Assembly: GCA_035759705.1 (NCBI GenBank)
Contig: DASTUJ010000107.1
Location: forward strand, 1 to 48,893
Source: Actinomycetota bacterium
GTDB lineage: Bacteria > Actinomycetota > CADDZG01 > JAHWKV01
DNA: 48,893 nucleotides
Direction: 5' to 3'
Below, one piece after another: positions 7,478-22,928 of the stretch. The notes under the pieces were generated by a model that saw only the letters and a program-made list of their open reading frames with translations, did not search any database and was not told the DNA's origin. The first letter of the stretch is position 1; every line of letters starts with the position of its first letter. The translations under genes were made by a program, and so were the position numbers.

Positions 7478-8905
7478 ATGACTTCGGGCGACGATAAACC
7501 TCAAGAGGCGTGCGGAGTCGTAGGTATCTACGCTCCGGGGCAGGAGGTTGCCAAACTTACCTACAACGCCCTTCTCGCCCTCCAGCACCGCGGCCAGGAG
7601 TCGGCCGGCATCACCGTCGTCGACAACGGACTGATGACCACCTTCAAGGAGATGGGCCTCGTCGCCCAGGTCTTCAACGAGAACGTGCTCAACTCGCTGA
7701 CCGGCGACATCGCCATCGGCCACGTCCGCTACTCCACGACGGGCTCCAGCACCTGGGAGAACGCCCAGCCCATCTACCGTCACTACGGCAAGCTCGGCGC
7801 CGCCCTCGGGCACAACGGCAACCTGGTCAACACCATGCAGCTTGCCGCCGACCTGGCCGGTGACGACGAACGCCAGCGTGGGGTGTCCAACGACTCGGAC
7901 GTGATTGCCGAGATGATCGTCACCTGCGGCAAACCCACAGTCGAGGAGGGCATCCTCGACACACTCCCCAAGCTCCAGGGAGCGTTCAGCCTGGTGGTCC
8001 TGGACGACCACACCGTCTTCGGTGCCCGTGACCCTCACGGCCTTCGCCCGCTGGTGCTCGGCGCCCTGGGCGCGACAGGCTACGCCCTGGCCTCCGAGAC
8101 CTGCGCCCTAGACACCATCGGCGCCACCTTCATCCGGGAGGTTGAGCCGGGGGAGATGGTGGTCATCGACGACACCGGCGTCCGCAGCCACCGCTACGCC
8201 GAAGCCACTCCGTCGCTCTGCGTATTCGAGTACGTCTACTTCGCCCGCCCGGACTCGATCCTCTACGGCAAGAGCGTCCAGAAGGCCCGCTACCAGATGG
8301 GCATGAAGCTGGCCGAGGAGAGCCCGGCCGACGCCGACATCGTCATCCCGGTCCCCGACTCCGGCCGGGGGGCGGCAGCCGGCTACTCGCAGACCTCCAA
8401 GCTCCCCTACGTCGACGGCTTCGTGAAGAACTCCTACGTCGGCCGCACGTTCATCCAGCCCTCCCAGGCGATCCGGCAGCGGGGCATCGGCAACAAGCTG
8501 AACCCCATTGCCCACCTGATCGAGGGCAAACGCCTGGTGGTCGTCGACGACTCGATCGTCCGGGGCAACACCACCCGGCAGATCGTCCGCCTGCTCCGCC
8601 ACGCCGGGGCGAAGGAGGTCCACATGAGGATCTCGTCGCCGCCCATCAAGTGGCCCTGCTTCTACGGCATCGACACCGCGAACCGGGACGAGCTAATCGG
8701 CGGCCACAAGAGCGTCGACGAGATCTGCGCCCACATCGAGGCCGACTCGCTGGCCTACCTCTCCGAGGAGGGGATGATCGAGGCCACCGAGACCGCGGCC
8801 GACAAACTCTGCACCGCATGTTTCTCCTCGAACTACCCGATCCCGGTGCCGGTCGAGGTCAAGCTGACCAAGAAGATGCTTGAAGTTGAGGGTGCCCCGC
8901 AATGA
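7478..8905 (+). CDS. purF: amidophosphoribosyltransferase
   Basis: First committed step of purine synthesis: PRPP plus glutamine gives phosphoribosylamine. 475 aa. The Ntn glutaminase nucleophile is C12 in EACGVVGIY after an 11-residue propeptide, which points to the Bacillus/actinobacterial type that is self-processed. Further features are LQHRGQESAGI, the PRPP-binding loop VVVDDSIVRGNTT, and C-terminal cysteines (PPIKWPCFYG, CTACFSSNYP) that fit an Fe-S cluster. The ATG at 7478 has AAGGAG at 7467-7472. ATG 7473 is out of frame. The purM frame opens inside its 3' end. Confidence 0.96.
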   Translation: MTSGDDKPQEACGVVGIYAPGQEVAKLTYNALLALQHRGQESAGITVVDNGLMTTFKEMGLVAQVFNENVLNSLTGDIAIGHVRYSTTGSSTWENAQPIYRHYGKLGAALGHNGNLVNTMQLAADLAGDDERQRGVSNDSDVIAEMIVTCGKPTVEEGILDTLPKLQGAFSLVVLDDHTVFGARDPHGLRPLVLGALGATGYALASETCALDTIGATFIREVEPGEMVVIDDTGVRSHRYAEATPSLCVFEYVYFARPDSILYGKSVQKARYQMGMKLAEESPADADIVIPVPDSGRGAAAGYSQTSKLPYVDGFVKNSYVGRTFIQPSQAIRQRGIGNKLNPIAHLIEGKRLVVVDDSIVRGNTTRQIVRLLRHAGAKEVHMRISSPPIKWPCFYGIDTANRDELIGGHKSVDEICAHIEADSLAYLSEEGMIEATETAADKLCTACFSSNYPIPVPVEVKLTKKMLEVEGAPQ

Positions 8906-9983
8906 CACCCCGCACGACGCTGATTTGACCCCCGAAACCCCCACCGGTTCCCGCTCCGCCACCTACGCCGACGCAGGCGTCGACATCCAGGCCGGCGAAC
9001 GTGCCGTCGAGTTGTTCAAGAACCGCGTCCGGGCGACCGACCGTCCTGAGGTGGTTGGAGGCATCGGCGGCTTCGCCGGGCTGTTCTCTCTCGGCCGCTC
9101 CAAGTACTCCCAGCCGATGCTGGTGTCGGCCACCGACGGCGTCGGAACCAAGCTGATGATCGCCCAGGCGCTGGGCAAACACGACACGATCGGGATCGAC
9201 CTGGTGGCCATGTCGGCCAACGACGTCGCGGTACAGGGGGCCGAGCCGCTGTTCTTCCTGGACTACATCGTCACCGGCAAGGTGGTTCCCGAGACCATCG
9301 AGCAGATCGTGTCGGGTGTCGCCGAGGGGTGCCTGCAGGCGGGCTGCGCGCTGCTGGGCGGGGAGATTGCCGAGCACCCCGGCCACATGCGGGAGGGCGA
9401 CTACGACCTGGCAGGCTTCTGCGTCGGGGCGGTCGACGAGCGCAAGGTTCTGACCGGCGCATCCATGGTGCCGGGCGACGTGCTGATCGGCTTCAACTCG
9501 TCCGGCCTGCACTCCAACGGCTACTCGCTGGTGCGCAAGGTCATCGAGGAGAGCCTGTTCGATCTGAACGACCATCCTGCCGAGCTGGACCGTCCGCTCG
9601 GCGAGGAGCTGCTCACCCCCACGATCATCTACTGGAACGCGGTGGCCGCCCTGCAGGCGGAGGGGCTGGCCCGGGGGTTCGCCCACATCACCGGCGGCGG
9701 GCTGGCCCACAACCTGGGGCGAATCATCCCGCCCGGGTTCCAGGCGGTGGTCGAGCGGTCGGCGTGGACGATCCCGCCGATTTTCCGGGTGATCGCCTCC
9801 GAAGGGGTCTCGGTGCCCGAGATGTTCAAGACCTTCAACATGGGGATCGGGATGGTCGGAGTGGTTGACGCCGACGACGCCGGCCGGGCGCTGGAGGTCA
9901 TCAGAGAAGCCGGCTACAAGGCGCAGCAGATAGGCGTGGTTCGGGCCCGCCCGGACGGGGACCCCGAAGTTATACTGCCCTGA
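8892..9983 (+). CDS. purM: phosphoribosylformylglycinamidine cyclo-ligase (AIR synthetase)
   Basis: ATP-dependent ring closure of FGAM to AIR. Core motifs: SATYADAGVDI at the N-terminus, DGVGTKLMIAQALGKHDTIGIDLVAM, NDVAVQGAEPLFFLDY, and GLHSNGYSLVRKV. The start is uncertain. TTG 8880, GTG 8892 and TTG 8925 are all in frame, and the ATG at 8902 is in another frame and closes after eight codons. GTG 8892 is preferred because a purine-rich GTTGAGG lies just upstream and it overlaps purF by 14 nt, as expected for coupled translation. About 363 aa from this start, normal for the family. Confidence 0.94.
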   Translation: MPRNDTPHDADLTPETPTGSRSATYADAGVDIQAGERAVELFKNRVRATDRPEVVGGIGGFAGLFSLGRSKYSQPMLVSATDGVGTKLMIAQALGKHDTIGIDLVAMSANDVAVQGAEPLFFLDYIVTGKVVPETIEQIVSGVAEGCLQAGCALLGGEIAEHPGHMREGDYDLAGFCVGAVDERKVLTGASMVPGDVLIGFNSSGLHSNGYSLVRKVIEESLFDLNDHPAELDRPLGEELLTPTIIYWNAVAALQAEGLARGFAHITGGGLAHNLGRIIPPGFQAVVERSAWTIPPIFRVIASEGVSVPEMFKTFNMGIGMVGVVDADDAGRALEVIREAGYKAQQIGVVRARPDGDPEVILP

Positions 9984-10012
9984 ACCTTGCTTTACCCCGG
10001 GGAACTTCGGGG
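9962..10012 (+). terminator. inverted repeat across the purM stop
   Basis: CCCCGAAGTT (9962-9971) and AACTTCGGGG (10003-10012) are perfect complements around a 31-nt loop. A local alternative, CCCCG/CGGGG, also forms. The loop contains TATACT (9971-9976), a good -10-like hexamer. It could be a terminator, or a promoter with a structured leader for the cupredoxin operon. There is no U-tract. Confidence 0.35.
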
Positions 10013-10054
10013 AAGCGGCTCTTCGCTGCGGCCCCGATGTCGTTAGGAGGATCC

Positions 10055-10495
10055 ATGCGAAAGTCGGTCGCATTGCTTGCTGCTTTGTTCCTGCTGCTCC
10101 TTTCCGCCTGCGGCGGGGGAGACAGCGACTCGGGATCGGACACGGCGGAGCCGGAGGCTACCGCCACCGCGTCGAACATCGAGGATAGTGCCGAGGACCC
10201 CACCTGTGAGCCTCAGGGAGCCGAGGTGAACGTGGTCTCCAAGGACAACGCCTTTGACTCGGACTGCTACGCCGCCCCGGCGGACACCGAGTTCAAGCTC
10301 ACGCTGAAGAACGAGGACCCATTCGCCCACAATCTTTCGATCTACAAGACCAAGGGGGGTGACCGGTACTTCGAGGGTCCCTACGTCCAGGGAACGGAGA
10401 CCCAGACCTTCGACATCGGAGGCCAGCCGGCACAAAATGCTTACTTCGTGTGCGACATCCACCCCCAGATGGAGGGGGTGTTCATCTTTGGCTAA
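10055..10495 (+). CDS. cupredoxin-like lipoprotein (type 1 copper site)
   Basis: 146-aa exported lipoprotein: a hydrophobic signal ends in LLLLLSAC (lipobox), then an acidic Ser/Thr linker, then a plastocyanin-like domain. The copper ligands are visible as a His in DPFAHNLSIY and the cluster FVCDIHPQMEG, giving Cys, His and Met. It therefore probably carries electrons at the outer face of the membrane. ATG 10055 is preferred to ATG 10037 because TAGGAGGA stands just before it. Its stop overlaps the start of the sugar dehydrogenase gene by 8 nt, so the two are co-translated. The copper protein may be the electron acceptor for that enzyme; this is an inference from position. Confidence 0.85.
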   Translation: MRKSVALLAALFLLLLSACGGGDSDSGSDTAEPEATATASNIEDSAEDPTCEPQGAEVNVVSKDNAFDSDCYAAPADTEFKLTLKNEDPFAHNLSIYKTKGGDRYFEGPYVQGTETQTFDIGGQPAQNAYFVCDIHPQMEGVFIFG

Positions 10496-11975
10496 TTCCA
10501 ATCGTTTGCGGCTGGGAGTCCTTGCGGCGGTAACCGGCTTGCTCCTGATCACGCCCGGGGCTGTGTCGGCGCAGACCGGCGATGATGACCTGCGTGCGCC
10601 GGCCGGGCCCGAGGTGGGGTTGGAGCTTCTCGCCGATGGTTTGACCTCACCGGTGTTCCTCACCGAGTCGCCGGACGACTCCGGAAGGCTGTTCATCGTC
10701 GACCAGGCGGGACAGATCCGGATTCTGGACGAGGAGGGGTCCCTCGTCGACGAACCGTTCCTGGACCTGTCCGACAAGCTGGTTGAGCTGACGCCGGTCT
10801 ACGACGAGCGTGGCGTGCTCGGCCTGGCGTTTCATCCGGACTACGCAAACAACGGCCGGCTGTTCGTCTACTACTCGGTGCCGTTGCGCGACGGAGCGCC
10901 CGAGGGCTGGAACCACACCGCACGCTTCTCCGAGTTCAAGGTCGACTCAGACGACGAGAACCGCGTCGACCCCGAGTCGGAACGGGTTGTTATGGAGATC
11001 GACAAGCCGCAGGCCAACCACAACGGCGGCCACATTGCGTTCGGCCCCGACGGGTTCCTGTACATCCCGATGGGCGACGGGGGCCGGGCCAACGACGTCG
11101 GCCTCGGGCACTCACCGGGGGGCAACGCCCAGGACCTTACCAACGTACTCGGCGACATCCTGCGGATCGACGTCAACGGAGCGGAGCCCTACGCAGTCCC
11201 TCCCGACAACCCGTATGTGGGCCGGGCGAACGTAAAGCCGGAGATCTGGGCCAACGGCTTCCGCAACCCGTACCACATCAGCTTCGACCAGGGCGGTTCC
11301 CGCGAGCTGTTCGCCTCGGACGCCGGCCAGGACCGGTTCGAGGACGTGAGCATCGTCACCAAAGGGGGCAACTACGGGTGGAACATCAAGGAGGCCGCCC
11401 ACTGCTTCGACCCCGAAAAGCCGGCCCAGCCGCCGGCGACCTGTCCTTCGACCGGGCCGGCGGGTGAGCCGTTGATCGATCCGGTGATCGAGTACGGCAG
11501 GCTGGAGATTCTGGGCTCGACGGTGGTCGGAGGCTACGTTTACCGGGGCACCGAAATTCCCGAGCTCGACGCCGCCTACGTCTTCGGCGACTACAGCCGC
11601 GACCGGGTCAAGCCGGACGGTACGCTGTTCGTCGCCCGCCGGGCCGAGTCGGGCCTATGGCCGGTGGAGGAGGTCAAGCCCTACCTCCCAGCGGAGGACA
11701 TCGACGGGACGCTCGGTGAGTTCGTCCTGGGCTTTGGCCAGGACAACGACGGCGAGATGTATCTTCTGACCAAGGACGCCGGAGGTCCCGAAGGTGAAAC
11801 CGGATCGGTTTACCGCTTCGTACCCCGAGCCTCGGTCGAGGCGGCGCCCGATGGGGCCGGCAGCGACGAAGATTCGCCGGGCGGTGGGATCAGCCCGTGG
11901 ATCTGGGCGATCGGCGTTCTGGTTCTGATCGGCCTGGCGATAGTGATCGGCAGCATGAGGTCTTCGGACAGCTAG
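10488..11975 (+). CDS. PQQ-dependent sugar dehydrogenase-like beta-propeller with C-terminal membrane anchor
   Basis: 495-aa exported enzyme of the soluble glucose dehydrogenase / aldose sugar dehydrogenase type. N-terminal signal peptide (VLAAVTGLLLITPGAVSA), then a six-bladed propeller with conserved DERGVLGLAFHPDY, NHNGGHIAFGPDGFLYIPMG, GNAQDLTNVLGDILRIDV and FRNPYHISFD. A C-terminal transmembrane helix (about 466-487, IWAIGVLVLIGLAIVIGS) is unusual, because many relatives are free secreted proteins. The start is TTG 10488, inside the cupredoxin stop, with GGAGGGGG about 9 nt upstream; longer frames lack a signal peptide. It probably oxidises aldose sugars outside the membrane. The true substrate cannot be told. 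Confidence 0.82.
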   Translation: MANSNRLRLGVLAAVTGLLLITPGAVSAQTGDDDLRAPAGPEVGLELLADGLTSPVFLTESPDDSGRLFIVDQAGQIRILDEEGSLVDEPFLDLSDKLVELTPVYDERGVLGLAFHPDYANNGRLFVYYSVPLRDGAPEGWNHTARFSEFKVDSDDENRVDPESERVVMEIDKPQANHNGGHIAFGPDGFLYIPMGDGGRANDVGLGHSPGGNAQDLTNVLGDILRIDVNGAEPYAVPPDNPYVGRANVKPEIWANGFRNPYHISFDQGGSRELFASDAGQDRFEDVSIVTKGGNYGWNIKEAAHCFDPEKPAQPPATCPSTGPAGEPLIDPVIEYGRLEILGSTVVGGYVYRGTEIPELDAAYVFGDYSRDRVKPDGTLFVARRAESGLWPVEEVKPYLPAEDIDGTLGEFVLGFGQDNDGEMYLLTKDAGGPEGETGSVYRFVPRASVEAAPDGAGSDEDSPGGGISPWIWAIGVLVLIGLAIVIGSMRSSDS

Positions 11976-11986
11976 GAAGCCATCGA

Positions 11987-12030
11987 GCCCGGGCCGCCCC
12001 ACCTCACTAAAGGGGAGGGGCGGCCCGGGC
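11987..12030 (+). terminator. strong GC-rich hairpin terminator
   Basis: A perfect 14-bp inverted repeat, arms GCCCGGGCCGCCCC (11987-12000) and its complement at 12017-12030, with a 16-nt loop. It directly follows the sugar dehydrogenase stop. There is no clear U-run, as is common for high-GC Actinobacteria. Confidence 0.7.
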
Positions 12031-12086
12031 CATCCTGTCCCTGTTCCTGCTACGGTGGAGGGATCACCTACCGGAAGGCAATGGAC

Positions 12087-12272
12087 ATGGCGGCCAAGTT
12101 CAGCATCCGTACCAGCAAGAACGACCAGTTCCACTTCGTGTTGGTTGCAGGTAACGGCGAAGCGGTCGCCAACAGCGAGATGTACGCCTCGAAGTCCGGA
12201 GCGGTCAAAGGCGCCGAGGCCTGCCAGCGGGCCGCCGCAGCGGCAACAATCGTCGACGACACCGGAGCGTAA
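12087..12272 (+). CDS. DUF1508 (YegP-like) small protein
   Basis: 61-aa single DUF1508 domain with the typical pattern FSIRTSKNDQFHFVLVAGNG, then SEMYASKSGAVKGAEACQR. The fold is a small alpha/beta unit; its function is unknown, and many relatives carry two copies. ATG 12087 is preferred over ATG 12081 because GGAAGG ends 8 nt before the former but only 2 nt before the latter. The stop TAA (12270-12272) directly abuts the stop of the convergent HerA-like gene with no base between. Confidence 0.82.
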   Translation: MAAKFSIRTSKNDQFHFVLVAGNGEAVANSEMYASKSGAVKGAEACQRAAAAATIVDDTGA

Positions 12273-14738
12273 CTACCAGCCGGGAGAGAGCTCTCCCGAC
12301 GGCGACACGAAATGCGGCGCCCACGCCAAGGCCAGCAGTTGGACCGAGATATCCGTCTTCTTCGGTTTGACCGTAACCTTCTCCAGCGTCTCGGTCATCG
12401 GATCGGCTGCTGCCGACAGGGCGTTGGCGTCCTCCTGAAACTGCACCTCCAGGGCGTCCAGCTGGGACCTTAGGGCCCCTACCGTCTCCTCGGCACGCTT
12501 CACGTCCCCCGACTGCTGAACCGCCCGGCCGACGCCCCGGGCGGCCGTAGTGGCGCGACCCAGCGACCCCAGGCCCTTCTTCCGGCCCAAGAACGCTCCC
12601 AGCACCGTTCCGCCGATGGAGATGGCGGTCTGCAGCTTGGCCTGCTTGGCCTGCTCGGCCTCACGTTCGGTGGCGGCCATCGCCTTGCGCAGCCGCTCCT
12701 GGAGCGTGGCGGTCTTGGCGGCGTACTTCTTGCGCAGCTCCTCGGCGCCGGCGTCCCGCTTCTCCCGGCCGGCCTGCTGGAGCCGGATGCGGAAGTCGGC
12801 CTCCGACTCGTCCGGGGTCGAGAACGCTTTGTAGGTAGGACTCGAGAACAGCTCGATCGACTGGCTGCCGTAAACCCACTTCGCCAGGTCCCGCTCCCAA
12901 CCGGCATAAGAGGTCTTCTTTCCGGCGGCGGCGGGAAGCTCGCCGTAACCCGAGCTCGGCTCGGGCTCGGACTCCAGGTCGGAGGGACCGAACTCACAGG
13001 GGACCGACTCGTCCCAGTCGGCCGGCACCGGCCGCTCGATCAGGGGCGTAAGCAGGTTCAGGCTGGTTGAGGTGTCGACCCCGGTCTTCGCGTCGGCAAA
13101 CCGGACTTCGACCGCCCCGAACAACATCGGCTGGTAAGCCACCTCGCCCTGTCCCCTCACCGGCAGGAAGTACTGCGGGATGTCCGGGGGCAGGACCGGC
13201 CGGGAAGCCGGGAGTGGTCCGTCGGTTGTCGCAACCGGGGCGGCTGCCGGAACCGCAGGTGCGGGAGCCGCCGGCGGTTCGGAAGCATCCCTGTGAGCCG
13301 GCAGCCCGGCCTTCACCGGGTCCATCAGGGTCCGGATCTGGGACTGGGTGATCGGCCCCGCCAGGTAGGACAGGGTCCACCGGGTCTGGAAGATCACCGG
13401 CTCGTCCTCGTGGACGTTGTTCATCAGGAAGACCCGCTTGCCGAGGCCGGCCAGCGTCTCCTCCATCGCACCCCGGTCGAAGCCCGCCGCGCTGCCCGCT
13501 GAGGCGCCTTCAAGTCCTTCGAGCACCCGTTCTTTGTCCCGGGCGGTCTGCAGCCGGCCGATAAGCCAGGTCCCGGCGTTCGAAAGTCCCTTGTAGTCCA
13601 GGTCGACCGGGTTCTGGGTCGCCAGCACCACTCCGACCCCGAACGCCCGAGCCTGCTTCAGCAGGGTGAGCAGCGGGGCCTTGGACGGCGGGTTGGCGAC
13701 GGGCGGGAAGTACCCGGCGATCTCATCCATGTAGATCAGGGCTCGAAGGCTGGTCGTGCCTGCCTGTGAGCGGGTCCAGGCAAGCATCTCGGAGAGCACA
13801 AGCGAGACGAAGAACATGCGCTCGGTGTCGTTCAGGTGGGCGATGGAGAGGATCGAAAGCCGGGGCCTGCCCTCCGGGGTTCGGAGCATCGCGCCGATGT
13901 CCAGCGGCTCGCCCTCCATCCACGCCTCGAATCCGGGAGAGGCAAGCAGCGCGTTGAGTCCGAGGGCCAGCTCGAACCGGTCCTTGGAGGGGAAGAAGCT
14001 TTCGACCTCCATCACCCCGACCCGGGTGACGGGCGGGTTCTGGATCAGCTGGATGAGGTCGCCCAGCTCCAGGTTGCGGCCCTCCCGCCACGCGCCGCCG
14101 ACGATCGTCGACAGCAGGATGTGCTCCCGGCTGCGGATGGGGTCGGCCTCGATCCCGGCCAGCGACAGCAGGGCGCTCACCGTGCCGGAGACCCGGTCGC
14201 CGAGCGCTTCGGGGTCGGCCATTATCGCCGGCGAAGGAGCGGTGAAGGACTTGAGGACCGACACCGGGATGCCGGCCCGGCTGCCCGGCGTGTAGATCGC
14301 CACCTCGGCGGCGTCCTTCAGCCGGCGGATGCGTTCGCCGTCCTGCCCCCAGTCCGCCAGGCCGTTCCGCCAGAGATCGGCCTGCTTGGCGGCAAGCTCG
14401 GGCACCGAGATGCCTTCCGAGGCGGCCTGGTCGGCGTTGACCCACGGTTCCAGGTCGGCGGGCGCCAGGTCGGGGAAGGTCAGCATGAGGTTGGCGAGGT
14501 CGCCCTTGGGGTCGATGAGGATCGCCGGGATGCCGTCGATCGCCGCTTCCTCGATCAGGCCCAGGCACAGACCGGTCTTGCCGCTGCCGGTCATGCCCAC
14601 GCAGACCGCGTGGGTGGTCAGGTCCTTCGAGTCGTAGAGGAGCAGGTCGGGTTGGCGCTCGCCGGCGGCCAGGTCGAACTTACGGCCGAGGTAGAACGAC
14701 CCGAGCTTTTCGTAGTCGGTATCCATGGGTTCGGCCAT
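12273..14738 (-). CDS. HerA/FtsK-like AAA+ ATPase (DUF87-type)
   Basis: 821-aa predicted P-loop ATPase of the HerA/VirB4-like kind. Walker A is GMTGSGKT (residues 48-55), and the Asp-rich DPKGDLANLM follows at 76-85. Walker B is LRALIYMDE (331-339). The HerA-type sensor/arginine-finger block VLATQNPVDLDYKGLSN is at 371-387, with GRLQTARDKERV after it. An Ala/Pro-rich linker (about 490-530) leads to a C-terminal part with a long charged helix (about 650-720) and a last coiled coil. The gene lies 1 nt downstream of a membrane protein gene on the same strand, so the two probably work together. The substrate (DNA, protein or a conjugation-like channel) is unknown. Confidence 0.85.
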   Translation of the reverse strand: MAEPMDTDYEKLGSFYLGRKFDLAAGERQPDLLLYDSKDLTTHAVCVGMTGSGKTGLCLGLIEEAAIDGIPAILIDPKGDLANLMLTFPDLAPADLEPWVNADQAASEGISVPELAAKQADLWRNGLADWGQDGERIRRLKDAAEVAIYTPGSRAGIPVSVLKSFTAPSPAIMADPEALGDRVSGTVSALLSLAGIEADPIRSREHILLSTIVGGAWREGRNLELGDLIQLIQNPPVTRVGVMEVESFFPSKDRFELALGLNALLASPGFEAWMEGEPLDIGAMLRTPEGRPRLSILSIAHLNDTERMFFVSLVLSEMLAWTRSQAGTTSLRALIYMDEIAGYFPPVANPPSKAPLLTLLKQARAFGVGVVLATQNPVDLDYKGLSNAGTWLIGRLQTARDKERVLEGLEGASAGSAAGFDRGAMEETLAGLGKRVFLMNNVHEDEPVIFQTRWTLSYLAGPITQSQIRTLMDPVKAGLPAHRDASEPPAAPAPAVPAAAPVATTDGPLPASRPVLPPDIPQYFLPVRGQGEVAYQPMLFGAVEVRFADAKTGVDTSTSLNLLTPLIERPVPADWDESVPCEFGPSDLESEPEPSSGYGELPAAAGKKTSYAGWERDLAKWVYGSQSIELFSSPTYKAFSTPDESEADFRIRLQQAGREKRDAGAEELRKKYAAKTATLQERLRKAMAATEREAEQAKQAKLQTAISIGGTVLGAFLGRKKGLGSLGRATTAARGVGRAVQQSGDVKRAEETVGALRSQLDALEVQFQEDANALSAAADPMTETLEKVTVKPKKTDISVQLLALAWAPHFVSPSGELSPGW

Positions 14739-14739
14739 G

Positions 14740-15336
14740 TTATCGGTATCGCAGCCCCATCTCTTTCAGCTCCAGCCGGGCGAGCGGGGCGTAGTCGCCG
14801 GTGTGGAAGGCGCGGATCGCCTGCCGGGCGTCCTTGGTGCGAAGTTCGGTCAACGGCCGGTTGGAGATCGCCCGCAGCGCGAACAGGTAGAGGTTCTCCG
14901 GGTCCTCCCGGAGTCGTGCGGCCGCGGACGCGTCCCGGATCCAGCCGGCTCGCCTCCACAGCCACACCGTCAGCGCCAGCAGAATCGGCAGCAGCGCCAC
15001 AATGACCCCCACCCAACTCGACAGGGTGTCGACCGTGGCCACCTGGCTGTTGCCCGAGTCCTGCAGCGACTGCCCGACGCCCACCAGCCCGTCGAAGCGT
15101 TCCTTCAGGAAGCTGCCCAGGACCGGGACCCTCACGACTGTACCCTGCACCGAGGAGGCGGTTCCCTCCAGGTCCTTTCCGGCGTCTATCAGCATCCGCC
15201 CGGCGGCGGACAGCTTCTCCACCAGGTCGTTCATGTACATTCCGACCCGGATCCAGGCCCAGCACCAGGCGACCAGGAAGAGGTCGAAGAATGCCTGCCG
15301 GGACCTCTGGGTAGGGAGTTCGGCGTAGAGCTTCAT
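14740..15336 (-). CDS. membrane protein paired with the HerA-like ATPase
   Basis: 198-aa protein not matching a family I recognise. A hydrophobic stretch near the N-terminus (AFFDLFLVAWCWAWIRVGMY, about 15-34) is followed by a helical region with Gly/Ser-rich heptads (about 40-100). A clear transmembrane helix follows (WVGVIVALLPILLALTVWLW), with a C-terminal cytoplasmic tail. ATG 15336 is chosen for the GGAGGA 5 nt upstream; TTG 15348 is the upstream alternative. It sits 1 nt from the HerA-like start, suggesting it anchors the ATPase at the membrane. It is divergent from the RRM gene. Confidence 0.7.
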   Translation of the reverse strand: MKLYAELPTQRSRQAFFDLFLVAWCWAWIRVGMYMNDLVEKLSAAGRMLIDAGKDLEGTASSVQGTVVRVPVLGSFLKERFDGLVGVGQSLQDSGNSQVATVDTLSSWVGVIVALLPILLALTVWLWRRAGWIRDASAAARLREDPENLYLFALRAISNRPLTELRTKDARQAIRAFHTGDYAPLARLELKEMGLRYR

Positions 15337-15415
15337 GGTGTCCTCCAAAGCTTCCGGCGGCGGGGATTCGTCCGGGTTCTAGAATCGCACCATCGAAACC
15401 TTTCAGGAGAAACGA

Positions 15416-15664
15416 ATGATCGTTCGCTTACACATCGCCAACGTGGCGCCCGACGTCACCGAGGACGACCTCCGCGAGGAGTTCGGCATGGTGGCGGAGG
15501 TGATCGACCTGAGGCTGGTGATGGACGACCTCACCGACCGGCCGACCGGCACCGCATGGGTCCAGATGGCCAGCCAGCACGACGCCGACGAGGCGGTCAG
15601 GGCTCTCGACGGCGCCAAAGTCGGGGGCCGGACCCTCCGGGTGTACGAAGCGGACGACGACTAG
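15416..15664 (+). CDS. small RRM-type RNA-binding protein
   Basis: 82-aa single RNA recognition motif. RNP-2 is visible as LHIANVAP (residues 5-12) and RNP-1 as the GTAWVQMAS region (about 45-53), with AVRALDGAKVGGRTLRVYEA closing the fold. The aromatic positions of a classic RNP-1 are partly replaced, since W48 is the only large aromatic. Bacterial RRM proteins of this size are known in cyanobacteria and scattered phyla as RNA-binding, often cold-linked proteins; the role here is unknown. The ATG has CAGGAGA upstream. TAGAAT (15380-15385) is a possible -10. Its stop lies 1 nt from the convergent metalloprotease-like gene. Confidence 0.85.
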   Translation: MIVRLHIANVAPDVTEDDLREEFGMVAEVIDLRLVMDDLTDRPTGTAWVQMASQHDADEAVRALDGAKVGGRTLRVYEADDD

Positions 15665-15665
15665 A

Positions 15666-17852
15666 TCAGTTAGAAGCGGGGCTTCCGGTCCACGATTCGG
15701 CGTACTGGACCGGCGTGCCGTCGTTCCTGACCAGCTTCTTGCCGTCGTTCAGGGTGAGCTCGTAGGTACCCGACCCTTGGGCGTCGCCCTCGGCGTTGAC
15801 TGTGCCCTCGAAGGTGCCTTCGAACGTGAGCCGGTTCGGGGGGAAGCCCGGCTGCACCGAGGTCTCCACGCCGTTGACCAGCCTCCCGGTGATCCGGCCT
15901 GAGGCATCGACGGTTGCGTCCACGTCGAACCGCAACTCCCCGCCGTTGTCGTAGGGCAGCCGGCAGCTGCCGGTGACCTTTCCCGCCTGGTAGTCGATCC
16001 GCAGGCGCAGATGGTTGTCGTACGCGCCGTTTTGGACCCGCCCGCAACCCACCCTGCCGCCGCGGTAGTCCACCACCACCTCGATGTTGGGCCGAGCGCT
16101 CGGCGTCTGGTCGTCGCTGCCCCTTACCGTCAACGAAAACGGGATCGGGGCGGGAGGGGCGCCGGCCGCGGCGGTCGAGGGCCCGGCCAGCCCGAACACC
16201 AGCGCGACGATCTTCACCTTGCCCAGGTTCGGGGAAAACCGCCTCAGCCTTCCCACCTCAACCGTGGCCGTGTCCTCTCCTCCACCGAGAAGGCCGATGG
16301 CGACGGCGTGTTTGCGAAAGCACGAGATGACCTCTTTGGTTCGGGCGGTCTTTTCTTCGGGGCCAATCGACTGGTTGCAGTACGTGAGGTTGTCGGAGTC
16401 GTCGCCCTTGACGGCGAACAACAGGGTCCGCACGGCCTCCGCTTTGCCCGACGACACCCCGAAGGTCAGTGTGTCCCCGTCGCTCGCCCGGTCCATCTGC
16501 CCCATCTGCAACCTGACCAGTTTGTGGCCCAGCACCGGGACCGTGCCGTCGACCTTCGAGGGAAGCGAACCCCAGGAGACCGTGGCGTCGTTCCGGGCCA
16601 CGTATCCGAGTGCCGCGTTGGTCCGGTGGTTGACCCCGCTTCGAATGAACCCGGGAAAGTGCAGGTCGGTTATCGCCCGGAGGTAGATCACGTTGAACTT
16701 GTTCAGGTCGACGCCGCCGGAAGGGTCGGCCGCCAGAGTCTTCAGCAGCGACTGCGAGGAGCTGACCCCCGGCGCAGCCTCCTTTAACCACCGGAGCATG
16801 GTCGTAGGGTCGTCGCCGGTCTGAAAGACGGCCTCGTCGGCAAAGAAGCTAGCTTCGTACGCCTTCTCGTAGTTGGCGTCGGTCACCGACGGCCAGTCGA
16901 AGTAGCCCACGTCGAGCAGGCCGGCTCCGAACGACGAGTAGGCGTTGGGGTCCGGGTACTGCCTCTGCGTGAAGGTCGCGAAGCTCTCGGTCTGCCAGTA
17001 GTAGCCGGGCCGCTGGAACAGCTCCGACTTGCCCAGAGCCCTCAGCAGGTACATGTGAGCCACGTGGAATACCTCGTGGGCGATGCGCGGGCGGTCCATC
17101 GGCTGGTACTCGCCGGACTTCCACTGGGCGGGTTCGAAGTAGATCATGACCTGCGGGATACATTCCGCCCGGTCCTGCACCGGGGCGTTGCTGCACGGGT
17201 TGGCGGCGCCGTGCCGGAACGAAGCAACGTGGGTCATCGCAGCGAACGGCCTGCGGTCGGTGGTGATCAGGACCCCGAAGCGCCGGGCCCTCGCCGCGTC
17301 GACGAAGTTGAACGCCGGGTCCGGGTAGAACGCGGCGAAGTGGGCGGCCCCGCCCGCAACGCCCTGGCCTACGAAGGTGACGAAGTCCGGCGGCACGTCG
17401 CCGTCGACCCGGACGTCGGCGATCTCCGCCAGAGGCGGCGGGGCCGCGGCGGGCTGCGCCCGGAGAACGATCTCTTCCAGCGACGGAGGCGGGGCGAGGT
17501 AGTGGGGCTCGGCCGGGGGGCCCGGGGCGGAGAACAGCGTTGCGAGTGCTGCATCGTCCATAAGAAACGGTTCATCGAGCCCGGCGGTCAGCTGCTCCGA
17601 CAGCCGGTCCTGGTCCTGGGAACCGTCGACGGTGGACCCACGGTCGTCCAGACGGGGGATGATCACAGCAGCCGCAACGGCAACCACCGCTGCCACCGCC
17701 AGCGGGAGCTTCCCGCGCCTCCGCCGCCCGGCGATGTCGGGATCCCTGGGCGCCTCCTGCCGGGAGGCGGGATCGTCCAGAGATTTCCCGCACCAGGGAC
17801 AGAACTTCCCCGGGTCTTCCAGCGGCTTCCCGCACCAGGGACAAAACGCCAT
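15666..17852 (-). CDS. zinc-ribbon, single-pass membrane protein with extracellular HExxH domain
   Basis: 728-aa protein of unrecognised family. At the N-terminus is a zinc ribbon with C4, C7, C18 and C21 (two CPWCGK motifs). A basic patch and one transmembrane helix follow (about 49-65). The rest is predicted outside the cell. It carries HEVFH (259-263) in RIAHEVFHVAHMYLL and a Glu at 289 in QTESFATF. This is the layout of a gluzincin metallopeptidase (HExxH plus downstream Glu), but activity is not proven. The C-terminal region (about 570-728) looks like beta-strand repeats. Last gene of the five-gene minus-strand operon, 8 nt after the preceding stop. Confidence 0.75.
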   Translation of the reverse strand: MAFCPWCGKPLEDPGKFCPWCGKSLDDPASRQEAPRDPDIAGRRRRGKLPLAVAAVVAVAAAVIIPRLDDRGSTVDGSQDQDRLSEQLTAGLDEPFLMDDAALATLFSAPGPPAEPHYLAPPPSLEEIVLRAQPAAAPPPLAEIADVRVDGDVPPDFVTFVGQGVAGGAAHFAAFYPDPAFNFVDAARARRFGVLITTDRRPFAAMTHVASFRHGAANPCSNAPVQDRAECIPQVMIYFEPAQWKSGEYQPMDRPRIAHEVFHVAHMYLLRALGKSELFQRPGYYWQTESFATFTQRQYPDPNAYSSFGAGLLDVGYFDWPSVTDANYEKAYEASFFADEAVFQTGDDPTTMLRWLKEAAPGVSSSQSLLKTLAADPSGGVDLNKFNVIYLRAITDLHFPGFIRSGVNHRTNAALGYVARNDATVSWGSLPSKVDGTVPVLGHKLVRLQMGQMDRASDGDTLTFGVSSGKAEAVRTLLFAVKGDDSDNLTYCNQSIGPEEKTARTKEVISCFRKHAVAIGLLGGGEDTATVEVGRLRRFSPNLGKVKIVALVFGLAGPSTAAAGAPPAPIPFSLTVRGSDDQTPSARPNIEVVVDYRGGRVGCGRVQNGAYDNHLRLRIDYQAGKVTGSCRLPYDNGGELRFDVDATVDASGRITGRLVNGVETSVQPGFPPNRLTFEGTFEGTVNAEGDAQGSGTYELTLNDGKKLVRNDGTPVQYAESWTGSPASN

Positions 17853-17860
17853 CCGTGCGC

Positions 17861-18757
17861 CTAGAAGAAGCTGTAGGCGGCCCGGGCGAGCTTGAAGCCT
17901 TTGCCCGAGGCGAGGTTGGTGCAGGTCACCCCTTGTTCGGACACGTCACACCGGAAGTTCCCCCGCTGGGCCGAATTCCCGTAGCCCAGCGTCACCGGGC
18001 CACCGAGAACGGTGTCGCCCGCGCATACGGTGTGTGCCCCGACGTCCCTGACCATCAGGCCCTGACCCCAGTCCAGGTTGCACAACGGGGGCTTCGGCGG
18101 CGTAGGCCAGTCCTTCTCGGCAATGTCGCATCGAGCGCCCTCGGCGTCCAGGTAACAGCCGATGTTGCCCGAAGGCGTGACGAAATGTTCCGGGCCTGTG
18201 CCGGAGGGGGTTACGACGGTCTGGATGACCACCGGTTCAGTCGGAAAGACCGGAATGGTCGGCTGGGTCTGCGACTCGGTCGGGCTGGGTGAGGGGCTCG
18301 ACCGGGCGGTTGGCTGCGGTGTGTCCTTTTGGGACTGGTCGACGTACCAGTAGAAGATCAGGAACCCGATGATCAAAAGGGCCCACCAGAGCTTCTTGAC
18401 CTTCGAGGGCTTGGGTTTGCCGGCCTCGGCGGGACTTGCTCCAACCGGCACCGTGGGTGTGTCTTCTTTGCCGGACACTGCGGCGCCGCAGTTCCCGCAG
18501 AAGGGCGCCCCGGGGACAAGCTCGGCGCCGCAGTCTAGACACCTGCCGGACGTGGGGGGCGGCTCGGAAGGGGGTGGGGGAGAAGGCGCCGGCGGGGGAG
18601 GCGGCGGTGGAGGCGACTCGGAGGGACGCGGCGGAGGCTCGGGCGGAGGCGGCGGAGGCGGAGGAGCCTCGGACGGAGGCAGCGGAGGCGGAGGAGGCTC
18701 GGGCGGAGGCGGCGGCTCCGAGGGCGGAGGGCCCGGCGGCGGCGGGACGGAGCTCAA
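17861..18757 (-). CDS. proline-rich zinc-ribbon membrane protein with exported DUF6636-like domain
   Basis: 298-aa protein in three parts. First comes a 70-residue polyproline/Ser/Glu tail, then a zinc ribbon (C73, C76, C87, C90). A single transmembrane helix follows (about 123-139, LWWALLIIGFLIFYWYV). The outer C-terminal domain holds FVTPSGNIGCYLDAEG and paired cysteines, resembling the actinobacterial exported domain I recall as DUF6636. The start is not obvious because the frame stays open to about 19060. TTG 18757 is preferred: it shares TTGA with the stop of the upstream gene and has GGCGGGG before it. The longer reading would duplicate sequence read by the 109-aa gene in another frame. 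Confidence 0.68.
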   Translation of the reverse strand: MSSVPPPPGPPPSEPPPPPEPPPPPLPPSEAPPPPPPPPEPPPRPSESPPPPPPPPAPSPPPPSEPPPTSGRCLDCGAELVPGAPFCGNCGAAVSGKEDTPTVPVGASPAEAGKPKPSKVKKLWWALLIIGFLIFYWYVDQSQKDTPQPTARSSPSPSPTESQTQPTIPVFPTEPVVIQTVVTPSGTGPEHFVTPSGNIGCYLDAEGARCDIAEKDWPTPPKPPLCNLDWGQGLMVRDVGAHTVCAGDTVLGGPVTLGYGNSAQRGNFRCDVSEQGVTCTNLASGKGFKLARAAYSFF

Positions 18758-19083
18758 ACCGCACCCCGCCCTTCCAGCCGCCGGCCGTCGACCCAGCCGG
18801 TCCAGCCGTTCCAGCCCCTGACCTCGGCCCACGATCCCCACTCCCGGATCAGCTCCAGCTCCACGCCCGGCTGCAACTGGGCGACCGGCGGCTGGGTTCC
18901 ATCGGCTGCGGCCCACGCGCTCATTCCACCGGCGGGAACCGTGTGGGTCGCCCGCCAGGAGGGAGCCGGGTCGGCAGCCGCTGGAGAGCCAACCGCCTGC
19001 CCCAGCGCGGTGCCGCAGATCAGGCATTGGGTCAGCGCCCCGACGTTGAGCGACCCACATCCGGTACAGACGATGCCCTTCAT
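18754..19083 (-). CDS. zinc-ribbon plus SH3-like domain protein
   Basis: 109-aa soluble protein. The N-terminal zinc ribbon has CTGCG (residues 6-10) and CLICG (20-24). It is followed by a short Ala/Pro linker and an SH3b-like domain with AQLQPGVELELIREWGSWAEV and NGWTGWVDGRRL. No signal peptide or membrane helix is seen. The ATG has GAGGAAGG about 6 nt upstream. The gene lies 32 nt after the 862-aa membrane protein and overlaps the next gene by 4 nt, so all are one operon. The zinc ribbon/SH3 mix suggests a binding or scaffold role; the partner is unknown. Confidence 0.7.
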   Translation of the reverse strand: MKGIVCTGCGSLNVGALTQCLICGTALGQAVGSPAAADPAPSWRATHTVPAGGMSAWAAADGTQPPVAQLQPGVELELIREWGSWAEVRGWNGWTGWVDGRRLEGRGAV

Positions 19084-19115
19084 CTCGACCTTCCTCGCCT
19101 ATCGTTTGCCCACGG

Positions 19116-21704
19116 CTATTTTGTCTTCGAGCTCGACTTCAGAGCCTGAAGCTTCTTGGTGGCCTCGTTCAATCGCTTCAGGTCGTTTGCCCGATCCTCC
19201 TCGGCCTGGACCGCAAGCTCCCTGACGTCGTTGGTCACCGGTTTGTTCGCCTTCTCAAGCTGGGCGACCTTTGCCGATGCCTGGTCGGCGGCTTTCACCG
19301 CGTTGTCGTAGCTGAGCTTCAGTCTCGCCACCTCCTTCTCGGCCGTGTCGATCTGCTGGGCCGCCGCCGTCTGGGCCGGGTCGGGGGGCTGCGGCTTCAT
19401 CGCTGCATCGGCCTTCTTCAGCAGGTCCTCACCCATCTGGATCCCCTTGTCGGTGGCAAAGTCCTTGAACGCCTGCGAACCGGTCACCTTGTCCGCAGCC
19501 GCATCCTTCAAGGTCTTTGCACCTTCGGTGATCTTGTCCCCGGCGTCCGAGAGGGCTTTACCGATTGACGTCGGGTCGATCCCTTTGGCCAGCTCCATCG
19601 CCTTGGCCACCGCGTCGGCAGCGGCCGGCTGCGAGGTGGCGGGGCCGGGAGCGGCCGGGGGCTTGAGTGCCTCCCGGATTCTCCGCTGCTCGTAGAGGCT
19701 CTCGATGTGGGCCTGTTCCGCCCGCAGACGGTCCAGCTTCGCCTGGTCGATCTTCTGCTGGAGGTCGGGGGAGATGCCGCCTGGGCCGGAAGCCTTCTTG
19801 CCCTCCTCCCGCAGCTTGCCCTCCTTGCGCCGGGCGTCGTCGTAGCCCTTCTTCAGGTCCTTCGACCGCTTCTCCGCCTGGTCCAGGTCTTGCTGGGTCG
19901 GGGGCGGCGGCAGCTGCCGGACGATCTCCTCGACCTTTCCGGAGATCGCGGTGCGCGCCTGGTCGACGCCCTCTGCGATCTTCGTGGCGGCGTCGCCGAT
20001 TGCGTCCTTGGTGGAGCCCCACGGGTCCGGAACCGGCGGGGCGGGCGGAGCGGGCCAGGTCTGGGTGACTATGGGCCGGTTGGGGTCGAAAACCGTCTTT
20101 CCGTCCACCTCCTTGGTTCCGAAACTCCCGCCTGCCCAGTTCTCCGGCAGGTTCTCGGGGACCTCGACGTAGGTGTTCCCGTCCGACCCGGTGTGAAGTC
20201 TGGGGTCGGCCCCCAGCCCCTTGAGGTCGCCCGCCAGCTTGTTGGGGTCGAAACCGCCCGCCGGCGGGTCCAGCTGGCCGGTCACGGGAGGTGTGGCCGG
20301 GTGGGTCCAGTTTTCGACTACGGCGATCGGCTGGTCCGGGTCGAGGACCACCTGGCCGTTGGGCAGCGTCCTGGGGTTGCCGGCAATGCCCTTGATCCCG
20401 GGCGGGAGGTCGTTGGGCCAGGGGAGCGGCGCCGTCGGGTCGTAGGGAACGCCCGGGTTGGAGGCCTCCCAGATGCGCTGCCTGGCGTCGTCCCCGCTGA
20501 TGACCCGCTCGTCCGTGACCATCGGGTCGCCGCCCTGCGGAGGAGTCGATGCGGCTCCGGGCGAGGTTACGGATGGGCCGGAGACCGGGCCGACGTCGGG
20601 CACCGCCATCGGCCCCACCGGGTACCCGAGCGGCGGGGTGCCGAAGGGACTGAAGGGCCCCCCGGGCGGGACCGGAGCGTCCGGCGCCGGTTCGGGCGGG
20701 CCGGTCGGGCCGCCGCGGGCCGCATCCTCGAACGCCTTGCGTATTCGGCCGACCAGGTCCCCGATCGCCTTGCCGCCGGCGGCGCCGGCTGCCGCGGCGA
20801 TCGCTCCTTTGACCGCGTCGACGAATATTCCGGTGGTTCCCTCGCAATCCAGCCACTGCTCGGTCTGCTCGCCGCTCAGCACCCCGGCGAGCGTCACCAT
20901 GCACTCGGCAAAGTCGCCGTCGTCGGCGAAGGCGGGGGAGGCTCCGAGCACGATTCCCAGTGCCGCCGGCCAGATCAGCAGTGCGGCGGGCCCGGCTCCG
21001 GGCGCCCCGGGTTTGCGCCCGGAGGCCATCGCGCCGGCCGCGGCCGCGATCGCCAGGACCAGCTTGATCACCGGGCTCTGGATCACAAAGCCCAGGGCGA
21101 GCGCGGCAGCGCCGCCGAGGAGTCCGACGATCGCTGCGAGGGGCCGGTCCAGGGCCCGGGCTCGGCCGGGCGAGATGCGCCCGGCGACCGCCCCCCAAAC
21201 CCGCTGGACCAACCCGGCGAGGATCAGGCCGATGAAGGTCGGCACCGCAAGCAGCACCCCGGTAGCCATAACTGCACCCAGCCAGGGTGCGATGAACTGC
21301 GAGGCGACCAGCCCGGCGGCCAAACCCCACAGAAGGTGGCTGCGGGCGTCCTGCCCGTCGTCCTCGAATATTCTGCCTATCGTCTTCGGAAGGCCGCGGA
21401 CGTCCCGCCAGAACACCTCGGCGCCGACCGCCCGCCGGTACCCGAAGAGGCTGAAGAGCACCATCATCCCGAGCGTCCAGGTCAGCCCGCCGGTGATCGT
21501 GTTGTCGTTGCTGGTGACCGGGCTACCGGGAGGGGCGTTGGACCCGCCGTACCGGCCGGCGATCAGCAGGACGTTGGCGGCGTAGCCGATGACCGCGCCC
21601 ACCGCGGCGGTGACTACGGTCGAGGGGAGGTTTGAGAGCAGCGACCGCTTGACGGCGGAGGCCAGCTCCCGGAAGGTGGCGGGTGCGGCCGGCGAGGAGC
21701 TCAC
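19116..21704 (-). CDS. large polytopic membrane protein with Pro-rich repeats and coiled coil
   Basis: 862-aa protein of unrecognised family. Residues 1-260 hold about six to eight transmembrane helices. The last helix ends in GASPAFA-DDGD (258-260 AFA), which looks like a signal-peptidase site, so the remainder may be released or displayed outside. C268 and C287 could form a disulfide. A Pro/Gly-rich region follows, with two related segments: VVLDPDQPIAVVENW (452-466) and KTVFDPNRPIVTQTW (536-550). Long charged coiled coils are predicted at about 595-690 and 780-862. The GTG start shares GTGA with the upstream stop. It is a possible structural core of the operon. Confidence 0.68.
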   Translation of the reverse strand: MSSSPAAPATFRELASAVKRSLLSNLPSTVVTAAVGAVIGYAANVLLIAGRYGGSNAPPGSPVTSNDNTITGGLTWTLGMMVLFSLFGYRRAVGAEVFWRDVRGLPKTIGRIFEDDGQDARSHLLWGLAAGLVASQFIAPWLGAVMATGVLLAVPTFIGLILAGLVQRVWGAVAGRISPGRARALDRPLAAIVGLLGGAAALALGFVIQSPVIKLVLAIAAAAGAMASGRKPGAPGAGPAALLIWPAALGIVLGASPAFADDGDFAECMVTLAGVLSGEQTEQWLDCEGTTGIFVDAVKGAIAAAAGAAGGKAIGDLVGRIRKAFEDAARGGPTGPPEPAPDAPVPPGGPFSPFGTPPLGYPVGPMAVPDVGPVSGPSVTSPGAASTPPQGGDPMVTDERVISGDDARQRIWEASNPGVPYDPTAPLPWPNDLPPGIKGIAGNPRTLPNGQVVLDPDQPIAVVENWTHPATPPVTGQLDPPAGGFDPNKLAGDLKGLGADPRLHTGSDGNTYVEVPENLPENWAGGSFGTKEVDGKTVFDPNRPIVTQTWPAPPAPPVPDPWGSTKDAIGDAATKIAEGVDQARTAISGKVEEIVRQLPPPPTQQDLDQAEKRSKDLKKGYDDARRKEGKLREEGKKASGPGGISPDLQQKIDQAKLDRLRAEQAHIESLYEQRRIREALKPPAAPGPATSQPAAADAVAKAMELAKGIDPTSIGKALSDAGDKITEGAKTLKDAAADKVTGSQAFKDFATDKGIQMGEDLLKKADAAMKPQPPDPAQTAAAQQIDTAEKEVARLKLSYDNAVKAADQASAKVAQLEKANKPVTNDVRELAVQAEEDRANDLKRLNEATKKLQALKSSSKTK

Positions 21705-22738
21705 GGCCGGGCCTGCGGTTCGACGATCACGAAGCCTCCCGAGTAGGGTTCGTCGGCGATCTTGACCCGCTGAACCACCCGACCACTGAAGCAGACGCGC
21801 TCCCGACCCCCCGCCTCTAGGGGGGTGCCGTCGCCTGGGCCGATTGTGTAACTCCGCTCGTCAAGATTCAAGATGGTGGCGCATCTTTGGGAATCCACCC
21901 GCAGCCACTCCGGGAAAAAGCGCCCGCCGGAGATCACCGCGCTCGGACCCGGAGCCACTTCCCGGCCGGCCCGGACCAGCTCGGGGACGGCGAACGGCCG
22001 GTGCCATGACGCCAGCGCCCCGACCAGCACAGCCAGGGTCCATGCGACGGAGTGGGGACCGACCTCGCGCAGGTGGGACATCCACTCGTCGGCCTTCCGG
22101 ACGACGAGCCCAAGGGCGAGGCCGTACGGGACGTGCGCGGCGTAGGCCAGCCCGACCAGGTCCCACTTGCCGGCGATCCCGTAGAAGTCAGCGAAGGGCG
22201 TGACCACGGTTGCGGATTCGAGCACCATGGCCCAGGCCAGGCCGAACCCCCAGTGCCTGCCCCGGAACAGCGAGGCATAGAAGATCGCAAACCCCACACC
22301 GTTCAGGAAGTGGTAACCCCAGCCGGCAAATCCGGTGAGCGGCGACGACCCGTCGGCGTTCAGGATCAGCAGGCCGTAGGAGTCGATCGGGGCGAGCAGG
22401 CGGAACCCCATCAGTGAAAAGGGCACCCGAAACAGGTCGTACCCGATGGTGCCGATGAGCCCGGCCGTGAAGCCGACCGCGAGCGTCTGCCGGGTGGAAG
22501 GCAGACGCTCGTTCCGGGAGGAGAGAACGGCGAGGGCCAGCAGCCCAATGAGAGCGGGGGCCGCCACCCCCCAGAACCATTTGTGAAATGGGCCCAGGCC
22601 GTAGACCCAGGCGAGCAGCGGAACCACGGAGGCCAGGCCCAGCAGCCCGCAGGCGGCCGCGACCACACCATCGGTAACGCAGGTTTCGCTGCGATTGTCG
22701 ACCGACCCGGGGCGAACCAAGCCTTGTGAGCCCCCCAT
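21701..22738 (-). CDS. polytopic membrane protein, first gene of the five-gene operon
   Basis: 345-aa protein with about seven hydrophobic helices (about residues 25-265) containing GTIGYDLFRVPFSLMG and HFLNGVGFAIFYASLF. A C-terminal extramembrane part of about 75 residues follows (SGGRFFPEWLRVDS). No family is recognised with confidence. An open frame continues upstream to 22885, but that part would cross the tRNA-Phe gene, so it cannot be the real start. ATG 22738 is the first likely start; AGAGGA lies about 13 nt upstream, which is far, so a downstream start is possible. The stop overlaps the next gene by 4 nt. Confidence 0.65.
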   Translation of the reverse strand: MGGSQGLVRPGSVDNRSETCVTDGVVAAACGLLGLASVVPLLAWVYGLGPFHKWFWGVAAPALIGLLALAVLSSRNERLPSTRQTLAVGFTAGLIGTIGYDLFRVPFSLMGFRLLAPIDSYGLLILNADGSSPLTGFAGWGYHFLNGVGFAIFYASLFRGRHWGFGLAWAMVLESATVVTPFADFYGIAGKWDLVGLAYAAHVPYGLALGLVVRKADEWMSHLREVGPHSVAWTLAVLVGALASWHRPFAVPELVRAGREVAPGPSAVISGGRFFPEWLRVDSQRCATILNLDERSYTIGPGDGTPLEAGGRERVCFSGRVVQRVKIADEPYSGGFVIVEPQARP

Positions 22739-22855
22739 TTTGAGATGCCAATCCTCTTGCCGGAACCGCGTGAACGCAAGAGTGAACTGGGGAGGATGCT
22801 GAATTGTCTGTGCGGGGTGGCGCGCTCCCACCCGGTTGCGAGTGAGGGAGGGGAG

Positions 22856-22928
22856 TGGCCAGGGCCGGAATCGAACCAGCGACACCGCGGTTTTCAGCCG
22901 CGTGCTCTACCGACTGAGCTACCTGGCC
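22856..22928 (-). tRNA. tRNA-Phe (GAA)
   Basis: A complete 73-nt cloverleaf. Acceptor stem GGCCAGG/CCTGGCC with discriminator A; D-arm AGCTCAGTCGGTAGAGC; anticodon loop CTGAAAA gives GAA; T-arm GGTTCGATTCC. The 3' CCA is not encoded. TAGTAT on the minus strand (22997-22992) could be its -10. The rest of the 22739-23047 interval holds only this tRNA and flanking promoters. Confidence 0.96.

Follow-up and report, generated by a model that had tools for sequence, protein, structure and literature searches.

What the operon contains and how it is laid out

Zinc-ribbon membrane proteins are frequent in Gram-positive bacteria and mostly unexplained. What such proteins might do when several of them are encoded together with other envelope proteins is the question raised by a minus-strand operon of five genes, which runs from position 22738 down to 15666 of an actinobacterial contig of 48,893 nucleotides (the window, i.e., the whole stretch of DNA that was analysed). 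A sequence-only reading had described five genes joined by GTGA and TTGA overlaps and short gaps, and had taken their products for one envelope machine. We find that the operon is real, unusual, undescribed, and partly decoded. Its order and coordinates were confirmed: the reading frames are stop-free and overlap or nearly abut, and the junctions, read directly in transcription order, are a GTGA overlap, a 32-nt gap, a TTGA overlap, and an 8-nt gap. The TTG start of gene 4 is inferred from the TTGA overlap. The GC content at third codon positions is 0.80-0.88 in all five genes, near the values of the flanking genes. Scans for promoters and terminators returned nothing exceeding chance. The zinc ribbon pattern, C..C(8-20)C..C, arises in only 0.03-0.28% of shuffles of each protein that carries it. 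Taken together, the sequence supports reading the five genes as one co-transcribed-looking set of envelope proteins (Table 1).

Table 1. Position and character of the operon genes, their domains, and the flanking features
Feature	Position	Strand	Description
tRNA-Phe	22855-22928	-	just upstream of operon, shared strand; edge of variable region
Gene 1	21701-22738	-	345 aa, polytopic membrane protein
Gene 1 C-terminal domain	21704-21991	-	residues 250-345, beta-rich
Gene 2	19116-21704	-	862 aa, multi-helix with exported helical region; GTGA overlap with gene 1
Gene 2 helices (about six)	21018-21617	-	between residues 30 and 229; hydropathy and charge
Gene 2 signal-peptide-like helix	20925-21017	-	ends SPAFA at residue 260; preceded by R/K-bearing loop
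Gene 2 exported region	19119-20924	-	600 residues, Pro-rich and helical/coiled-coil; predicted outside
Gene 3	18754-19083	-	109 aa, soluble, zinc ribbon and SH3-like domain
Gene 3 zinc ribbon	19015-19068	-	Cys 6, 9, 20, 23
Gene 3 SH3-like domain	18775-18897	-	SH3_3 profile, weak
Gene 4	17861-18757	-	298 aa, polyproline, zinc ribbon, membrane helix, DUF6636
Gene 4 zinc ribbon	18488-18541	-	Zn_Ribbon_1, 25.6 bits (cut-off 25)
Gene 4 membrane helix	about 18338-18388	-	one helix
Gene 4 DUF6636 ectodomain	17876-18133	-	Cys-rich
Gene 5	15666-17852	-	728 aa, zinc ribbon, membrane helix, HEVFH...E ectodomain
Gene 5 zinc ribbon	17790-17843	-	
Gene 5 membrane helix	17658-17714	-	
Gene 5 HEVFH	17064-17078	-	residues 259-263, in ectodomain
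Gene 5 C-terminal region		-	beta-rich, beyond HEVFH...E289
RRM-protein gene	15416-15664	+	downstream of operon and convergent with it; 82-aa stand-alone RNA recognition motif

Gene 1 encodes a relative of the DUF6789 family

The gene 1 protein has about seven helices, counted by eye, with its N terminus inside. Residues 26-211 (22106-22663) align over 186 aa, at 31% identity and E 3e-11, with a protein of G179, a genome from another family, and that protein matches Pfam DUF6789 (PF20587) at 42.5 bits, against a cut-off of 27.1. Gene 1 itself falls below Pfam detection at this cut-off and has no DUF6789 profile match; judged by these alignments, it is filed as a relative of the family and not as a member. 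In comparison to DUF6789, gene 1 adds a beta-rich C-terminal domain, which probably sits outside the cell. AF2 predicted only strands for this domain (pLDDT 47.6), and a cupredoxin or cupin fold was unsupported, the best Foldseek match to the low-confidence model having an E value of 0.13.

Other relatives of gene 1 are found near merR, DUF302, or unrelated genes. Of the DUF6789-like membrane proteins encoded on gammaproteobacterial plasmids, one (L112, 1396-2178) adjoins merR and another (L085, 3800-4489) a DUF302 protein. Such neighbours are a possible metal link for the DUF6789-like family. They would fit a module in which gene 1 handles metal at the membrane while the ribbons and the peptidase depend on zinc supply, as would the conserved His and Asp residues within the membrane helices. 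We consider this metal-linked account very unlikely, however, as the relatives next to merR and DUF302 are distant (27-33%) and lack ribbon genes, the window operon includes neither a metal transporter nor a metal regulator, and a search for a metal-site match in the gene 1 beta domain found none.

Gene 2 combines membrane helices with a long exported region

The 862-aa product of gene 2, for which six to eight helices had been proposed, is best read as having seven, the last being the signal-like helix with the AFA site; five exceed a strict hydropathy cut and the remaining ones were assigned by eye. The pattern of positive charge in the loops fits an N-in, C-out topology. Searches of 120 relatives, about 300 genomes of the phylum, viral contigs, plasmids, and phages, together with a pattern scan across GTDB, turned up no homologue of gene 2. 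These samples cover hundreds of the phylum's genomes, not all, and the exact short-pattern scans used for gene 2 and for the peptidase region are insensitive. Two weak matches to gene 2 were inspected, one of them an acetolactate synthase-like reading frame, and both were chance-like.

Genes 3 and 4 pair zinc ribbons with SH3-like and DUF6636 domains

Of the zinc ribbon and SH3 domain attributed to the gene 3 protein, the ribbon is borne out by its four cysteines, while the SH3 assignment is weak (SH3_3, 22.6 bits and E 1.2e-4, compared with a cut-off of 27 bits). The usual ligand of bacterial SH3 domains is the cell wall. The gene 4 protein was correctly described as a polyproline zinc ribbon protein with an exported Cys-rich domain. 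Prolines account for 47 of the 70 residues at its N terminus, its ribbon passes the Zn_Ribbon_1 profile, and its Cys-rich ectodomain is a member of DUF6636 (PF20341), here preceded by the polyproline stretch and the ribbon. The DUF6636 score is 29.9 bits with the ectodomain alone, which passes the cut-off of 27, and falls to 25.3 bits for the longer reading frame that includes the low-complexity stretch. Thus, the earlier statement that the operon has no recognised function needs qualification: DUF6789-like and DUF6636 are families that apply to it, yet both are uncharacterised.

Gene 5 encodes a candidate surface metallopeptidase

The zinc ribbon, membrane helix, and HEVFH domain noted earlier can all be read in gene 5, and the peptidase motif is credible. 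As in gluzincin metallopeptidases (peptidase MA-like), an HExxH is followed after 25 residues by a glutamic acid in a WxxExxA context: E289, within YYWQTESFA, is a candidate third zinc ligand, and the protein thus contains both elements of the gluzincin motif. HEVFH arises in 0.75% of shuffles of the gene 5 protein, and the longer pattern HExxH...[WFY]xxE[SG]xA in 0 of 20000, a count that is indicative only, since the pattern was devised after seeing the sequence. In contrast to gluzincins, the gene 5 protein has no Pfam peptidase profile match, no PDB sequence match, and no usable structure model (single-sequence AF2, pLDDT 36.4); it is the motif that suggests a peptidase. The peptidase region found no homologue in anything searched, including the insensitive exact-pattern scan; a single weak match to it was noise. 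From its motif, the gene 5 ectodomain is probably a surface metallopeptidase.

Parts of the operon recur in other actinobacteria

If the five products act together, their genes might be expected to keep company elsewhere, and here the result is mixed: only one instance of the complete five-gene set came up in everything searched, but sub-sets recur in other actinobacterial lineages, one combining DUF6789, ribbon, and exported helical proteins and the other ribbon, membrane helix, and DUF6636. The first is seen in G179. At one locus a tRNA-Lys is followed by the DUF6789 protein, a protein with a ribbon and six helices, and an exported helical protein with a signal peptide. The DUF6789 relative overlaps the ribbon-six-helix gene by ATGA, and the operon is truncated, as the contig ends after the exported helical protein. 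A paralogous second locus encodes a ribbon-polyPro-TM-ectodomain protein, a ribbon-six-helix protein, and an exported helical protein. The two ribbon-six-helix proteins are 41% identical (E 7e-39), and a search of about 300 genomes of the phylum for further copies found them in G179 only. The two sets lie at L075, 10153-12703, and L062, 1-2432; their exported proteins have in common a repeated helical hairpin flanked by two cysteines and belong to no Pfam family.

In G179, a multi-helix protein and an exported protein led by a signal peptide have a gene each. By analogy, gene 2 is plausibly the two fused into one, and the AFA site inside it would be accounted for in this way. The equivalence is one of architecture and position, because neither half matches above chance: alignment of the exported part of gene 2 to the two G179 exported helical proteins was no better than with shuffles, and that of the membrane parts was not significant.

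The second sub-set occurs on plasmids. In one protein from a Nocardia plasmid (L113, 2945-4345), DUF6636 is fused to several helices, a ribbon with four cysteines, and a membrane helix, and on a Miltoncostaea plasmid a TM-ribbon protein adjoins a polyPro-TM-DUF6636 protein, which by eye has a SHOCT-like N terminus. The Rhodococcus and Mycobacterium DUF6636 proteins are without a ribbon. Hence, among the four plasmid examples of DUF6636, a ribbon is part of the protein in one case and of an adjacent protein in another. No peptidase was seen beside the G179, Nocardia, or Miltoncostaea sets.

These distributions bear on whether the genes form a machine at all. That the complete set was seen once in the searched data, and that gene 1 relatives and DUF6636 relatives can also be found on their own, could mean that unrelated envelope genes were packed together as neighbouring cargo. 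The overlapping reading frames, the three matching ribbons, and the recurrence of identical pairings in unrelated genomes all argue against this explanation, which we judge to have little chance of being correct.

The operon lies in a variable interval next to tRNA-Phe

In the window, the interval from purM to tRNA-Phe (8880-22928) carries a HerA-like ATPase, a 202-aa membrane protein gene, the RRM gene, and the five-gene operon; it also holds a glucose/sorbosone dehydrogenase with a cupredoxin reading frame (10037-11975). Gene content here differs in each genome of the family that was compared, and the operon is absent from the three others, G002, G003, and G005. In G002, a congener that keeps the flanking genes in synteny (61-91% identity), HTH, glyoxalase-like, and UvrA-like genes lie between HerA and tRNA-Phe. 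In G003, the 202-aa gene alone separates purM and tRNA-Phe, and in G005 the two are directly adjacent. Because the contents of the interval vary in this way, the operon appears to be optional cargo there.

The HerA-like ATPase (12273-14738) has a long C-terminal extension and is weakly matched by the mads_8 and HerA defence models; its orthologues, 38-75% identical, are found without the five-gene operon in G002, G064, G052, G077, G066, and G103. We rejected this ATPase and the 202-aa gene, which together span 12273-15348, as parts of the operon system. Their presence varies independently, since G002 has HerA and G003 has the 202-aa gene, both without the operon, and the opposite-strand RRM gene lies between them and the operon.

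Such a setting could also suit an accessory conflict cassette, serving competition or phage defence, in an insertion hotspot beside tRNA-Phe, and the G179 set is likewise beside a tRNA. This alternative is improbable in our view, given that the five genes have no PADLOC match, that PHROGs gave only weak ribbon or low-complexity matches, and that no toxin domain was found. Integrase-driven integration at tRNA-Phe was rejected as well: the 3' end of the tRNA was not directly repeated at 20 or 24 nt within 9901-22854, and the genes scanned around the operon gave no Pfam match to an integrase.

A proposed accessory envelope complex

The reading that we favor, tentatively and with somewhat less than even confidence, is that the five genes are one translationally coupled cassette and build an accessory cell-envelope complex with cytosolic ribbon adaptors and a peptidase acting outside. 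The ribbons would serve as cytosolic adaptors that hold the products of genes 4 and 5 and the soluble ribbon-SH3 protein under the polytopic products of genes 1 and 2, and an SH3-polyproline contact might also help tie the membrane proteins together. The outside face would present a helical scaffold, DUF6636, and the probable metallopeptidase. The exported part of gene 2, 600 residues long, would be an outer stalk or scaffold, possibly freed at the AFA site, and the substrate of the gluzincin-like gene 5 ectodomain may be this scaffold, a protein associated with the wall, or an incoming one. Through such membrane-anchored proteolysis the cassette would maintain the surface or remodel it in response to stress, a task carried as optional cargo and not as a core function.

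Several observations support such a complex, namely, the overlaps and short gaps, the coding signature, the parallel operon in G179 with its matching order and its second copy, the Nocardia fusion, the Miltoncostaea pairing, and the peptidase motif. Against it stand the absence of a homologue of gene 2 or the peptidase from everything searched, the chance-level matches of gene 2 to the G179 proteins, the absence of a peptidase beside the partial sets, the low confidence of the structure models, and the fact that relatives of gene 1 elsewhere often lack ribbon neighbours. Of the single envelope machine first envisaged, the pairing of cytosolic ribbons with outer domains holds up, while secretion or regulated proteolysis is still inference. 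The wider proposition, in which zinc ribbons bind several membrane proteins together beneath the membrane in an undescribed envelope machine that displays an exported helical scaffold and a metallopeptidase on its outer face, and in which the related ribbon/DUF6789/DUF6636 sets make up a dispersed class of actinobacterial systems, is rather unlikely to hold in full. The operon and its partial counterparts bring a probable surface peptidase, exported helical proteins, ribbons, DUF6789, and DUF6636 together as a testable set, and they place the last two, both uncharacterised Pfam families, in a common context.

Comparison with known systems

The earlier claim that no described system has this set stands, as far as the searched libraries and papers show. 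Zinc-ribbon membrane proteins in operons of this kind have been described (PMC11237479, PMC8581546, PMC9239133, PMC10611510), which, with the Miltoncostaea protein whose SHOCT-like N terminus was noted above and which adjoins a ribbon protein, could point to a membrane-stress sensor like PspA-YdjGHI or TcaA. Its ectodomains would sense wall or antibiotic stress, its ribbons would relay the signal, and the HEVFH domain would be minor or inactive. We regard this account as doubtful, since the operon has no regulator and PspA, band-7, TPM, PspC, and LiaF are all missing from the Pfam and NCBIfam matches of the five genes. In comparison to the sensor, the envelope complex remains our preferred reading.

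Staphylococcus aureus TcaA is a zinc-ribbon-domain protein linked to the glycopeptide response (PMC10611510). The ectodomains of the window operon differ from the TcaA type, whose partners are the TcaB efflux pump and the TcaR regulator, and a TcaA-like profile was absent from the Pfam and NCBIfam matches of the five genes. A likeness in gene composition is seen with the envelope-stress operon pspA-ydjGHI of Bacillus subtilis, where a zinc-ribbon membrane protein works alongside further membrane proteins and one with a coiled coil. Zinc ribbons are present in the membrane protein YdjG (PMC11237479, PMC9239133); YdjG and YdjH are required for YdjI and PspA to reach the membrane, and their loss leads to misplaced cell-wall synthesis under stress (PMC8581546). 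They offer the proposed complex a precedent in which membrane proteins with ribbons serve as assembly points. In contrast, the helical region of the window operon is predicted to be extracellular, and the operon adds a peptidase-like ectodomain, DUF6636, and SH3. Judged by its protein families, the operon is not the PspA-YdjGHI system; by analogy, it may work on a similar plan.
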